The notes below the pieces were generated by a model. It made no database searches. It was not told the origin of the DNA and saw only the letters and a program-made list of their open reading frames with translations. This document shows, in pieces, positions 7,051 to 11,965 of a DNA stretch of 64,000 nucleotides. Within the stretch, counting starts at the first letter, position 1. Each line of letters begins with the position of its first letter. A program made the translations under genes and the position numbers. This DNA is from Falsirhodobacter algicola (GTDB taxonomy: Bacteria > Pseudomonadota > Alphaproteobacteria > Rhodobacterales > Rhodobacteraceae). The DNA is taken from the NCBI RefSeq assembly GCF_018279165.1, contig NZ_CP047289.1, positions 868,001-932,000 of the forward strand, written 5' to 3'.

Positions 7051-7126
7051 TGGTGGGCCGTGACGGGTTCGAACCGCCGACATTTTCGGTGTAAACGAAA
7101 CGCTCTACCAACTGAGCTAACGGCCC
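7051..7126 (-). tRNA. tRNA-Val (anticodon TAC)
   Basis: The minus strand folds as a complete 76-base cloverleaf: acceptor GGGCCGT/ACGGCCC, D arm GCTC/GAGC, anticodon stem TTTCG/CGAAA around loop TTTACAC (anticodon TAC), and T arm GGCGG-TTCGAAC-CCGTC. The CCA end is encoded. Its own promoter is visible at 7137-7164, 10 bases upstream. Confidence 0.97.
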
Positions 7127-7136
7127 GCCACGCGCG

Positions 7137-7164
7137 GTTATACCCACGCGCGGCGAAGGTTCAA
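7137..7164 (-). promoter_or_regulatory. Promoter of tRNA-Val(TAC)
   Basis: TTGAAC (7164-7159) and TATAAC (7142-7137) are separated by 16 bases on the minus strand. They lie wholly within the 44-base gap between the aglK stop and the tRNA, so the tRNA can be transcribed independently of the agl operon. Confidence 0.75.
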
Positions 7165-7170
7165 GGGGCT

Positions 7171-8256
<1,086 letters not shown>

Positions 8257-8265
8257 GCTACCTCC

Positions 8266-9447
8266 TCAGCCGCCCTTGACCGAGCCTGCGAGCAGGCCCC
8301 GGACGAAATATCGTTGCAATGAAAAGAACACGATCAGCGGCACGATCATCGAGATGAAGGCCGCCGCCGTCAGAAGCTCCCAGTTGTTCCCGCGCGAGCC
8401 GAGAAGCTCCACGATGCGGCCCGTCATCACCATCTCGCTGTTGGACGTGCCGAGGAACACCTTGGCGACCAAGAGGTCGTTCCACGTCCACAGGAACTGA
8501 AAGATGCCGAACGCCGCCAGCGCCGGCAGACACAGCGGCAGGATGATCTTGCGGAAGATCTCGAAATCGGTGGCACCATCGACGCGCGCGCTCTCGATCA
8601 CCTCGCGCGGCAGGCCGACCATGTAGTTGCGCAGCAGATAGATCGCGAGCGGCAGGCCGAAGCCGGTATGCGCCAGCCAGACCCCGATATAACCCCGGCC
8701 AAGCCCCACCGCGTTGTGCAATTGAAGCAGCGGGATCAGCGAGAGTTGCAGCGGCACGACCAGAAGCCCCACCACCGCCGCGATCAAAAGCGAGCGCCCC
8801 GGAAACGCCATCCATGACAGCGCATAGGCGGCATAGGCGGCAATCAGGATCGGGATCACGGTCGCCGGGATCGCCACCGTCAGCGTGTTGAGAAAGGCCC
8901 GGCCCATCCCATCCGCCGACAGTACGGTGCCGTAGTTGCCGGTCGTGAAATCGGGGGGTTGGGTGGAGGTCAGGAAAATCCGCAGCCCGCGTTCGGGCGG
9001 TGCGTCCGTGGCGGTATCCCCCTGCACCACCTGCGGCTCGGAAAAGGGTTGCGGCGCGGTCAGCTCATAGCTGCCATCGGCCTGCACAGTCAATTCGCCC
9101 ACGGCCATGGGCGCGGTGTCCCCCGCGGCAAAGGCCGAGGGATCGACCGGAGAGGTGCCGAAGGCGATAATCTCGCCCCCCGCCGCGTCGTCGCCAAAGA
9201 CGTTGCCCGACAGAACCCAAGTGCCGCCATTCTCCTCGGCGGTGTCCGGCAGACCGGTGCGCGCGGCCCAACGCTGTTCGGACGCGGTCAGCGCCGTCCA
9301 CCAGCCCGATGTCTGAAGCTGCTCCCGGTCGCGGAACGAAGACACGAGAAGCCCGATGGTCGGGATCGTCCACAGCAGCACCAGGACGAGGACCGCGATG
9401 TTCAGCAGCCAGCGGAGACTGACATTCTTACCTGCGATGTTTTCCAT
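8266..9447 (-). CDS. aglG: Alpha-glucoside ABC transporter permease AglG, with large periplasmic insertion
   Basis: The 393-residue permease has its first membrane helix at about residues 12-33, then roughly 150 residues rich in Gly, Ala, Thr and acidic residues that should face the periplasm, then five further helices. The EAA loop reads EVIESARVDGATDFEIFRKIILPLCLPALA in two adjoining pieces near residues 280-310 and contacts the ATPase. A long insertion after helix 1 distinguishes AglG-type permeases from ordinary MalG relatives. It follows aglF with a one-base gap. Substrate preference for alpha-glucosides such as sucrose, maltose or trehalose is inferred from family. Confidence 0.88.
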   Translation of the reverse strand: MENIAGKNVSLRWLLNIAVLVLVLLWTIPTIGLLVSSFRDREQLQTSGWWTALTASEQRWAARTGLPDTAEENGGTWVLSGNVFGDDAAGGEIIAFGTSPVDPSAFAAGDTAPMAVGELTVQADGSYELTAPQPFSEPQVVQGDTATDAPPERGLRIFLTSTQPPDFTTGNYGTVLSADGMGRAFLNTLTVAIPATVIPILIAAYAAYALSWMAFPGRSLLIAAVVGLLVVPLQLSLIPLLQLHNAVGLGRGYIGVWLAHTGFGLPLAIYLLRNYMVGLPREVIESARVDGATDFEIFRKIILPLCLPALAAFGIFQFLWTWNDLLVAKVFLGTSNSEMVMTGRIVELLGSRGNNWELLTAAAFISMIVPLIVFFSLQRYFVRGLLAGSVKGG

Positions 9448-9448
9448 C

Positions 9449-10432
9449 TCAGTCCTCCTCCTTCTGGGCGTTGCGGATGTTCCAGATCATGATCGGCAGC
9501 ACGGCCACCATGATGACGATGGCAATCGTCGCCCCACGGTTGAAATCGCCCGCGCGGAAGGACCAGTCATACATCAGGTTCGCCAGCACCTGCGTGCCCC
9601 ATTGGCCGTTGGTGATCGCGAACACGATGTCGAAGATCTTCAGGACCATGATGGTGATCGTGGTCCAGACCACGGCGATGGTGCCGTAGATCTGCGGTAC
9701 CTGAATGCGCCAGAACACCTTCCACGGCGAAGCACCGTCGAGGATCGCGGCCTCGATCGTCTCGTCGGGGATGCCGCGCAGCGCGGCCGACAGCAGGACC
9801 ATGGCAAAGCCCGCCTGCATCCAGACCATGATGATCATAAGGAAGAAGGTGTTGACGATCGGCAGCGTCAGCCACGCCTGCGGCTCTCCGCCAAGGGAGG
9901 TGACGACCGCGTTCAGAAGGCCGATCTGCGTTTGATCGCCCGCGCGGAATTCATAGATGAACTTCCAGATGACGGCGGCCCCGACGAAGCTGATGGCCAT
10001 CGGCATGAAGATCAGCGACTTGGCAATCGTGCCCCATTTGATCGAATCCGTCAGCTGCGCCGCCACGAGGCCGACCAGCGTCGACAACGTCGGCACGAAG
10101 ATCAGCCACAGCACATTGTTGAACAGGCTTTCACGGAACTTCGGGTCTTGAACCATCCAGATGTAATTCGCGAGGCCCGTGAACTCCCCATCCCGCGAAA
10201 GGGAGAGCCAAACCGAGGCGAACAGCGGATAGACCAGATAGACGCCGAGCAGCACGATGGCCGGCGCAAGGAAGATCCATGGACGGATCCGCGACGAGCG
10301 GCGCAGATTCTCAGGTCGGCCCCGGCGCGGCGGCAGCACACGGTCCAAGACCATGTTCGCGAGGTAGAAATAGGCAAGGCATCCGCCGACACCGATGACG
10401 ATGGTCAGAAGTGCAAAGAGTATCTGTGTCAT
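9449..10432 (-). CDS. aglF: Alpha-glucoside ABC transporter permease AglF
   Basis: The 327-residue integral membrane protein has six or more hydrophobic segments (for example TQILFALLTIVIGVGGCLAY and WIFLAPAIVLLGVYLVYPLF) and an EAA loop ETIEAAILDGASPWKVFWRI. Such loops couple CUT1 permeases to the ATPase. The ATG at 10432 overlaps the aglE stop as ATGA, which favours it over a GTG at 10450. With AglG it should form the heterodimeric membrane channel. Confidence 0.9.
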   Translation of the reverse strand: MTQILFALLTIVIGVGGCLAYFYLANMVLDRVLPPRRGRPENLRRSSRIRPWIFLAPAIVLLGVYLVYPLFASVWLSLSRDGEFTGLANYIWMVQDPKFRESLFNNVLWLIFVPTLSTLVGLVAAQLTDSIKWGTIAKSLIFMPMAISFVGAAVIWKFIYEFRAGDQTQIGLLNAVVTSLGGEPQAWLTLPIVNTFFLMIIMVWMQAGFAMVLLSAALRGIPDETIEAAILDGASPWKVFWRIQVPQIYGTIAVVWTTITIMVLKIFDIVFAITNGQWGTQVLANLMYDWSFRAGDFNRGATIAIVIMVAVLPIMIWNIRNAQKEED

Positions 10433-11778
10433 CTCCCCAACGCCTCCCACGTCGCTTCGATGGTTCCGGTCGCATCCTCGGCCGATTGGCCCGCTACGAA
10501 ATCGACCATCGCCGTCCAGAAGGCCCCGGCGCCGATCGCACCCGGCATCAGATCCGAGGCGTCGAAGCGGAAGGTCGTCGCGTTGACCAGAATCTCACCC
10601 ATGCCGCGCAGTGTCGGATCGCCATAAGCGTCGAGATTGGCCGTCGTCAGCGGTGTGAGGAAGCCAGTCTGCGACATCCAGATCTCGTGCGCGATGGGGG
10701 TGCGCAGGAATTCGAGGAACGCTTCGGCCACGGGGGTGTCATGCGCGATGGTGAAGGTCGTCCCCGCACCCAGCACCGGATCGCCGAGGTCCTTCGTCTC
10801 GAAGGGCGGCATGTAGAAGAAATCCACATCCGCGCCGAACTCCGTCCCAGTCGGGAAGAACGAGCCGATGAACGAGGCCTGATGCATCATCATGCAGCGC
10901 GGCGGGATGGAGAAGAGGCCCTGTGGGCTGTCGCGGTGATCGATCCAGCCGACCCCGCCCGCGCCGCCATCGACGAAACGGTCGGTCTTGGCGAACCAGC
11001 CGAACTCGTTCACGGCCTCCACGACGCGGGGATCGTCGAAGGGGATCTCATGGGCGACCCATTGGTCGTAGACCTCGGGCGGCTGGGTGCGCAGCATCAG
11101 ATCCTCCACCCAATCGGTCGCGGGCCAGCCTGTGGCCGAACCGGAGCCGAGGGCGATGCACCACGGCGTCACGCCGTCATCGGCCATCCGCTCGGTCAGC
11201 GCCTTCAGCGCCTCCATCGTGCGGGGGATCTCGTAGCCAAGCGCTTTGAAATTCTCGGGGGAATAGAAGACGAGGCTTTTCACGTCGATCTTGTAGGGGA
11301 AGCCATAAACCGCCTCCTGACCGTCCGGCCCGGCAAAGGTCACGAGCTTCACCCAACTGTCGCCGGCGGCATAATTCTCGCGCAGCCAGTCGGCGGTATC
11401 GTCGGCCAAGGGCGTAAGCCGCCCCTGCCCGGCCAGTTGCCGCGCCAGACCCGGCTGGGGGAACACGGCGATGTCGGGGGGCGAACCCGAATTGACATCG
11501 ATGACGATCTGCTGCTCGAAGCTGTCGGAACCGGCGTAATCCACGCGGGCGCCCGTAGCGGCTTCGAAATATTCGAACGTCCGGCGGAAGGTCACCTCAT
11601 CCTCGGCCGTCCATGGGCCGGATATGGTGACGCTCTGCCCTTGCAGATCATGCGTCGCGGCAAAATCCTCGTAGGATTGCCAATTGAATCGCGGGTCTTC
11701 GCCCGGCTGATACAGAAGCTCTTGTGCCCCTGCGGCTGTGGCCATGACCGACAGAGCCACCGACAGGTGTACGCGCAA
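10429..11778 (-). CDS. aglE: Alpha-glucoside ABC transporter periplasmic binding protein AglE
   Basis: The roughly 449-residue protein has a signal peptide (RVHLSVALSVMATAAGAQ) and then a family-1 solute-binding fold: SVTISGPWTAEDEVTFRR near the mature start, GSDSFEQQIVIDVNSGSPPDIAVFPQPG, and the GSGSATGWPATDWVEDLMLR segment seen in AglE proteins. I chose TTG 11778 because GGGAGGAGAGG lies just upstream and the signal peptide then begins properly; an upstream TTG at 11820 would translate through the operator. It binds the sugar and delivers it to AglF-AglG. Promoter and operator are described separately. Confidence 0.87.
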   Translation of the reverse strand: MRVHLSVALSVMATAAGAQELLYQPGEDPRFNWQSYEDFAATHDLQGQSVTISGPWTAEDEVTFRRTFEYFEAATGARVDYAGSDSFEQQIVIDVNSGSPPDIAVFPQPGLARQLAGQGRLTPLADDTADWLRENYAAGDSWVKLVTFAGPDGQEAVYGFPYKIDVKSLVFYSPENFKALGYEIPRTMEALKALTERMADDGVTPWCIALGSGSATGWPATDWVEDLMLRTQPPEVYDQWVAHEIPFDDPRVVEAVNEFGWFAKTDRFVDGGAGGVGWIDHRDSPQGLFSIPPRCMMMHQASFIGSFFPTGTEFGADVDFFYMPPFETKDLGDPVLGAGTTFTIAHDTPVAEAFLEFLRTPIAHEIWMSQTGFLTPLTTANLDAYGDPTLRGMGEILVNATTFRFDASDLMPGAIGAGAFWTAMVDFVAGQSAEDATGTIEATWEALGR

Positions 11779-11800
11779 ACGACCTCTCCTCCCTCGTTTC

Positions 11801-11820
11801 TTGTCAGACAAGTCTGACAA
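11801..11820 (-). promoter_or_regulatory. Perfect palindrome, probable operator of the agl operon
   Basis: TTGTCAGAC (11801-11809) and GTCTGACAA (11812-11820) are exact inverted repeats with a two-base AA centre. The element lies directly after the predicted -10 box and 23 bases before the aglE start, a position where a repressor would block transcription. The half TTGTCAGACAA resembles targets of FadR-type GntR regulators more than CG-centred LacI operators. No regulator gene is present in the window. Confidence 0.7.
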
Positions 11821-11828
11821 TCACGAAA

Positions 11829-11856
11829 CAGTTAGGTCGGTTCGCCTCGTGTTCAA
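11829..11856 (-). promoter_or_regulatory. Predicted promoter of the aglEFGK operon
   Basis: On the minus strand TTGAAC (11856-11851) is followed after 16 bases by TAACTG (11834-11829). The predicted transcription start then falls just before the palindromic operator. The -35 box lies within an inverted repeat (11844-11872). Confidence 0.55.
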
Positions 11857-11872
11857 CAAATTGACACGAGGC
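11844..11872. repeat. Inverted repeat overlapping the agl -35 region
   Basis: GCCTCGTG (11844-11851) and CACGAGGC (11865-11872) are exact inverted repeats. The stem can extend inward through TCAA/TTGA with one bulged T. It lies between tRNA-Val(CAC) and aglE with no T run on either side, so it could be a second operator, a processing hairpin of a tRNA-agl transcript, or a weak terminator. Confidence 0.55.
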
Positions 11873-11890
11873 ATGGTATCCAGTGGTGGA

Positions 11891-11965
11891 TGGTGGGCGA
11901 TGAGGGATTTGAACCCCCGACATCTTCGATGTGAACGAAGCGCTCTACCACTGAGCTAATCGCCC
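11891..11965 (-). tRNA. tRNA-Val (anticodon CAC)
   Basis: The minus strand forms a 75-base cloverleaf: acceptor GGGCGAT/ATCGCCC, D arm GCTC/GAGC, anticodon stem CTTCG/CGAAG around loop TTCACAT (anticodon CAC, reading GTG), and a T arm with GTTCAAAT. CCA is encoded. Its 3' end is 113 bases upstream of the aglE start on the same strand. Confidence 0.96.

Follow-up and report, generated by a model that had tools for sequence, protein, structure and literature searches.

A 20-bp perfect palindrome after the promoter of an Agl-type sugar transporter operon in Falsirhodobacter, a candidate repressor operator of possible recent origin

AglR, a LacI-family regulator of Rhizobiales and Rhodobacterales, is described as a local regulator, encoded divergently from the single operon under its control (PMC4052901). 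Two GntR regulators of Pseudomonas have footprinted sites that resemble the one reported here. AlkR of Pseudomonas aeruginosa, of the FCD/VanR type, controls alkB2 and responds to acyl-CoA, and its site ATTGTCAGACAAT was footprinted with DNase I (PMC12042122). LhgR of Pseudomonas putida W619 controls the breakdown of L-2-hydroxyglutarate, and has a footprinted site, TTGTCTGACAA, at its own promoter (PMC8206213).

The window (the whole 64-kb stretch of DNA analysed) belongs to a Falsirhodobacter genome of 2.78 Mb and contains a four-gene sugar ABC transporter operon on the minus strand, composed of a binding protein, two permeases and an ATPase (Table 1). The aglE-like binding protein was 57-81% identical to its counterparts in the 80 relatives kept, and its gene was present in five of the seven genus genomes. 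The neighbours of the Agl-type cassette differ in each of five Falsirhodobacter genomes (L003, L004, L222, L223 and the window): DUF2382; a CDP-alcohol phosphotransferase with PhoX nearby; asparaginase; DctM with aconitase; and, in the window, tRNA-Val. These differing neighbours fit a mobile cassette that is re-regulated locally.

Table 1. Positions of the operon, its flanking tRNA genes and the elements of its control region within the window
Feature	Position	Strand	Evidence or remark
tRNA-Val(TAC)	7051..7126	-	directly downstream of operon; ARAGORN
aglK/ugpC/malK-like ABC ATPase	7171..8256	-	NCBIfam NF008653, 452.3 bits (cut-off 432); Pfam ABC_tran, OB_MalK
aglG-like permease	8266..9447	-	Pfam BPD_transp_1
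aglF-like permease	9449..10450	-	Pfam BPD_transp_1; gene order matches relatives
aglE-like solute-binding protein of Agl-type sugar ABC transporter	10429..11778	-	TTG start at 11778; Pfam SBP_bac_1, 7.1e-20
Shine-Dalgarno run GAGGGAGGAGAGG	~11783..11795	-	sequence
Perfect palindrome TTGTCAGACAAGTCTGACAA, proposed repressor operator	11801..11820	.	two TTGTCWGACAA cores that overlap, offset by 9 bases
Promoter	11829..11856	-	-35 TTGAAC 11856-11851, 16-nt spacer, -10 TAACTG 11834-11829
Second inverted repeat GCCTCGTGT-N11-ACACGAGGC	11844..11872	.	arms 11844-11852/11864-11872; overlaps -35 box
tRNA-Val(CAC)	11891..11965	-	directly upstream of control region; ARAGORN, Rfam RF00005

The operon sits between the two tRNA-Val genes of the window (7051-11965), and the 44-base gap that separates it from tRNA-Val(TAC) contains a promoter-like TTGAAC-N16-TATAAC at 7164-7137, recognized by eye. 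The two tRNA genes lie 13-14 bases apart in two of the six other genus genomes (L151 and L153 among the loci); in the remaining four, only tRNA-Val(CAC) was found within the stretch read.

The control region is the 112-bp intergenic stretch, in which the Shine-Dalgarno run, the palindrome, the promoter and the second inverted repeat follow each other up to tRNA-Val. A TTG at 11820 was considered as start codon and rejected, since it is inside the palindrome and the Shine-Dalgarno run precedes 11778. The earlier note had read a promoter with 16-base spacing here, and the congeners agree with it: a module TTGATC/TTGATA-N16/17-TAG was found upstream of the gene in four Falsirhodobacter congeners, with spacers of 16, 16, 16 and 17 bases, so that it has the conserved spacing of a sigma-70-type -35/-10 pair. 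A strict consensus scan called no promoter, the one described here included, and the support for this promoter is therefore comparative. The leader from the -10 box to the start codon measures 50 nt in the window against 29-33 nt in three congeners (start codons placed by eye), a surplus that roughly equals the palindrome in length; the leader of the fourth congener (L004) is longer and unrelated.

Read on the minus strand, the palindrome is TTGTCAGAC-TT-GTCTGACAA (11820-11801), with two perfect arms of 9 nt each (11801-11809/11812-11820), placed right after TTGAAC-N16-TAACTG as the earlier note had described. The search of the genome that the note had proposed found the 20-mer once, and still once at up to 3 mismatches, a level at which the reversed control pattern also matched one place. 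There was no second site in the genome, so neither a regulon nor an autoregulated regulator was seen. Conservation upstream of the aglE-like gene, on which the earlier note had made its idea depend, was absent: none of the 82 relatives' upstreams has the palindrome, the four congeners included. It was also in none of the 393 other genomes of the family (394 searched). A looser pattern, run over 390 genomes of the order (those listed all belong to the family and overlap the 394), matched the window genome and one locus of genome G260 (L221), where the match is inside a coding frame taken by eye for rpoD. Searches of viral contigs for the palindrome or its 11-mer core gave no match, nor did a similarity search of the 161-bp region against plasmids. 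PhoB-type direct repeats were set aside because the spacing of such repeats does not fit, and a fused pair of transposon ends was set aside because the half-site has no excess in the window.

Among the relatives, the corresponding position is usually held by another sequence. We compared 82 upstreams of 300 nt, and LacI frames were sought in 80 relatives with a home-made profile built from few seeds. The LacI-type palindrome CAAANCGNTTTG, presumed to be the AglR site, was present in 59 of the 82; these sites have a central CG and a sequence unlike the window palindrome, as expected from the view of the earlier note that the latter is not a LacI-type site. CAAAGCGCTTTG is likewise taken as a putative AglR site from its place beside a LacI gene, not from the paper. 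Of the 80 relatives, 59 have a LacI-family frame upstream, on the opposite strand; frame and site occur together in 56 loci, the site only in 3 and the frame only in 3. In 20 of the 82 relatives neither was found, and since 16 of these 20 are outside Falsirhodobacter, the lack is not special to this genus. For each relative we took the site closest to the start codon, together with the TTGAC closest to it; TTGAC was 40-46 bases from the site centre in 58 of 59 relatives, with 44 as the commonest value (20 relatives) and 46 in three. The window has 46 bases from the start of its -35 box to the palindrome centre, at the upper edge of this range. By sequence, a different palindrome is in the slot of the relatives' LacI-type site. 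In ten relatives (L017, L020, L026, L029, L032, L033, L041, L045, L048 and L049), the binding-protein gene has ATGTGATGGGAGGTAAATCACAT around its Shine-Dalgarno site, some 30 bases ahead of the start codon; this is an inverted repeat that could mask that site.

At the window operon, neither the usual local repressor nor its site seems to be left. CAAANCGNTTTG with 1 mismatch gave no match in the control region, the nearest one (11237) being within a coding gene, and a search of the seven genus genomes for exact CAAAGCGCTTTG gave no match in any of them. All four LacI genes of the genome were tested, and no clear AglR orthologue was found among them, whether adjoining the operon or elsewhere; AglR is therefore probably not the regulator of this operon. 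The best of the four showed 32% identity (140 bits) to agl-adjacent regulators, the L074 match aside; compared with one another, those regulators have a median of 46% (274 bits). The exception is one gene with 72% identity to the LacI gene of L074 (L074:4511-5602), which is located 2.4 kb upstream of the L074 operon. Across the genus, where 30 of 47 LacI matches had loci and were tested, each of the seven genomes has one LacI gene with 70-74% identity to this L074 gene (L120-L125, L127, L186). Because two of these genomes have no transporter gene, it looks like a general regulator.

The earlier note had considered the palindrome more like a GntR site, and this likeness was borne out: its core matches the footprinted sequences of both AlkR and LhgR, and the core TTGTCNGACAA has the GntR operator form N(y)GTN(x)ACN(y). 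The search for a regulator gene, also proposed there, led to no assignment. The genome has 21 GntR and 4 LacI matches, and no site at up to 2 mismatches was found upstream of a GntR gene in the 16 of 21 neighbourhoods covered. Apart from the window, the 11-mer core occurs at 11 places in the congeners, of which those in L199 and L200 look intergenic and that in L190 overlaps a GntR helix-turn-helix match. L199 is the only one of these places where an adjoining FCD GntR gene was confirmed by Pfam; there, GATTGTCTGACAATC (L199:1499-1513) lies between the 3' end of this gene and the next genes, not in front of it. In the window genome no close orthologue of the L199 regulator was found, the best match covering part of the 107-residue query at 39%, and the two best own-genome matches in a related comparison gave 30-32%. 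An ABC-type ATPase frame was seen by eye further along from the L199 site. A match with 1 mismatch, ATGTCAGACAA, recurs at a similar place in four GntR loci (L095, L096, L100 and L102), by eye close to where the gene ends. Among the relatives' upstreams, the only exact 11-mer (L049) is downstream of an intact LacI-type site.

We propose that the palindrome is a repressor operator, most likely read by a GntR regulator of the FCD type whose gene is located elsewhere in the genome, and we hold this tentatively, with belief and doubt close to balance. The palindrome would begin about 2 bases after the predicted transcription start, with its centre near +11, and a dimer bound there would block RNA polymerase. 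The Agl-type cassette would be without its usual local LacI repressor (AglR) and operator, and the palindrome, seen in the window only, would fill the operator position under an unlinked FCD-type GntR regulator. What we infer here comprises the start site, the binding, the repression, which regulator acts and the signal it answers to. If an operator, it was most likely gained recently.

The strongest alternative is that the palindrome arose by chance or drift, as recent neutral sequence of the leader (e.g., a small insertion) to which nothing binds. The absence of the palindrome from every relative would agree with this, as would the failure to assign a regulator after 16 of 21 GntR neighbourhoods. 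The counts point the same way: the 64-kb window has 5 palindromes of the same class, no excess over ten shuffles, which gave 2-7 (mean 4.2), and the 11-mer occurs at 12 places in the seven genus genomes (the window's own included) against 12 for its reversed control. Since both counts are at control level, the support for the operator comes from place and sequence, and the palindrome is significant by its position, not by its rarity in the window. Position and sequence are what chance accounts for poorly, namely 20 perfect bases in the place where a conserved promoter would have its operator, with a match to a published GntR core. When the 112-bp region was shuffled 5000 times, an arm of at least 9 with a spacer of up to 4 appeared in 0.18% of the shuffles, and two repeats with a spacer of up to 11 in none. 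Against the operator reading, a single non-conserved site with no known regulator is weak evidence, and the share left to chance is substantial; we consider chance somewhat unlikely.

The binder may also be a repressor from a different family (TetR-like, a LacI paralogue or other), for which the operator would be the full 20-bp dyad and not the 11-bp core. The perfect dyad of 20 bp is indeed longer than the GntR core of 11-13 bp, and the four LacI-family genes of the genome could supply such a protein. We regard this as rather improbable, because the core is an exact match to the footprints of two GntR regulators, and the relatives' LacI-type sites, with their central CG, are of different sequence. 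Still more improbable is an RNA element, in which a 5'-proximal stem-loop would stabilize the mRNA or affect translation. An 8-bp stem with a CUUG loop can form within 2 nt of the predicted start; however, folding of the leader does not exceed that of shuffles (z -0.81 and -0.20), the stem does not include the Shine-Dalgarno run, and Rfam matched only the tRNA.

The second inverted repeat differs in its folding. The earlier note had placed a repeat over the -35 box, which is present, but its arms are of 9 bases and not 8. As RNA it forms a strong hairpin (z -4.57, none of 200 shuffles as stable) that begins 18 nt past the CCA 3' end of tRNA-Val, and it might be a 3' hairpin that ends or protects the tRNA-Val transcript, overlapping the -35 box only from shortage of space. 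This is slightly more likely than an operator, and as a reading in itself we take it as a tentative one. In two congeners (L152 and L155), hairpins with T-runs were seen by eye about 15-30 nt downstream of this tRNA, which favors the reading. The repeat of the window, however, has the hairpin of an intrinsic terminator and no T-run after it, no terminator was called, and none of the 82 relatives' upstreams contains it. As the hairpin includes the -35 box of the operon, read-through from the tRNA and initiation at the operon use the same bases.

Returning to the operator, we might speculate that, after loss of AglR, the lineage put the operon, now placed between two tRNA-Val genes, under an unlinked GntR/FCD regulator by means of a 20-bp operator in the vacated slot, which would expose it to a non-sugar signal, and that the replacement was very recent; we consider this full scenario unlikely. 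Overall, this is ordinary promoter anatomy with a possible replacement of the operator. If binding is true, the locus would be an example of regulatory rewiring in which the promoter module was kept and the repressor site was swapped to another regulator family; the sequenced sister species of the genus carry neither site. If nothing binds, it is ordinary promoter anatomy.

Compared with the AglR regulon, the locus has the same transporter genes, with a palindrome likewise just after the promoter; it differs in that the window has no clear AglR orthologue, the genus has no exact CAAAGCGCTTTG, and the palindrome sequence is unrelated. With the AlkR site it shares the identical core TTGTCAGACAA, whereas the window element is a 20-bp dyad of two overlapping cores placed before a sugar transporter. 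The 11-mer of the LhgR site is the other core of the window palindrome; the target of LhgR is the breakdown of L-2-hydroxyglutarate, and that of the window palindrome would be a sugar transporter.
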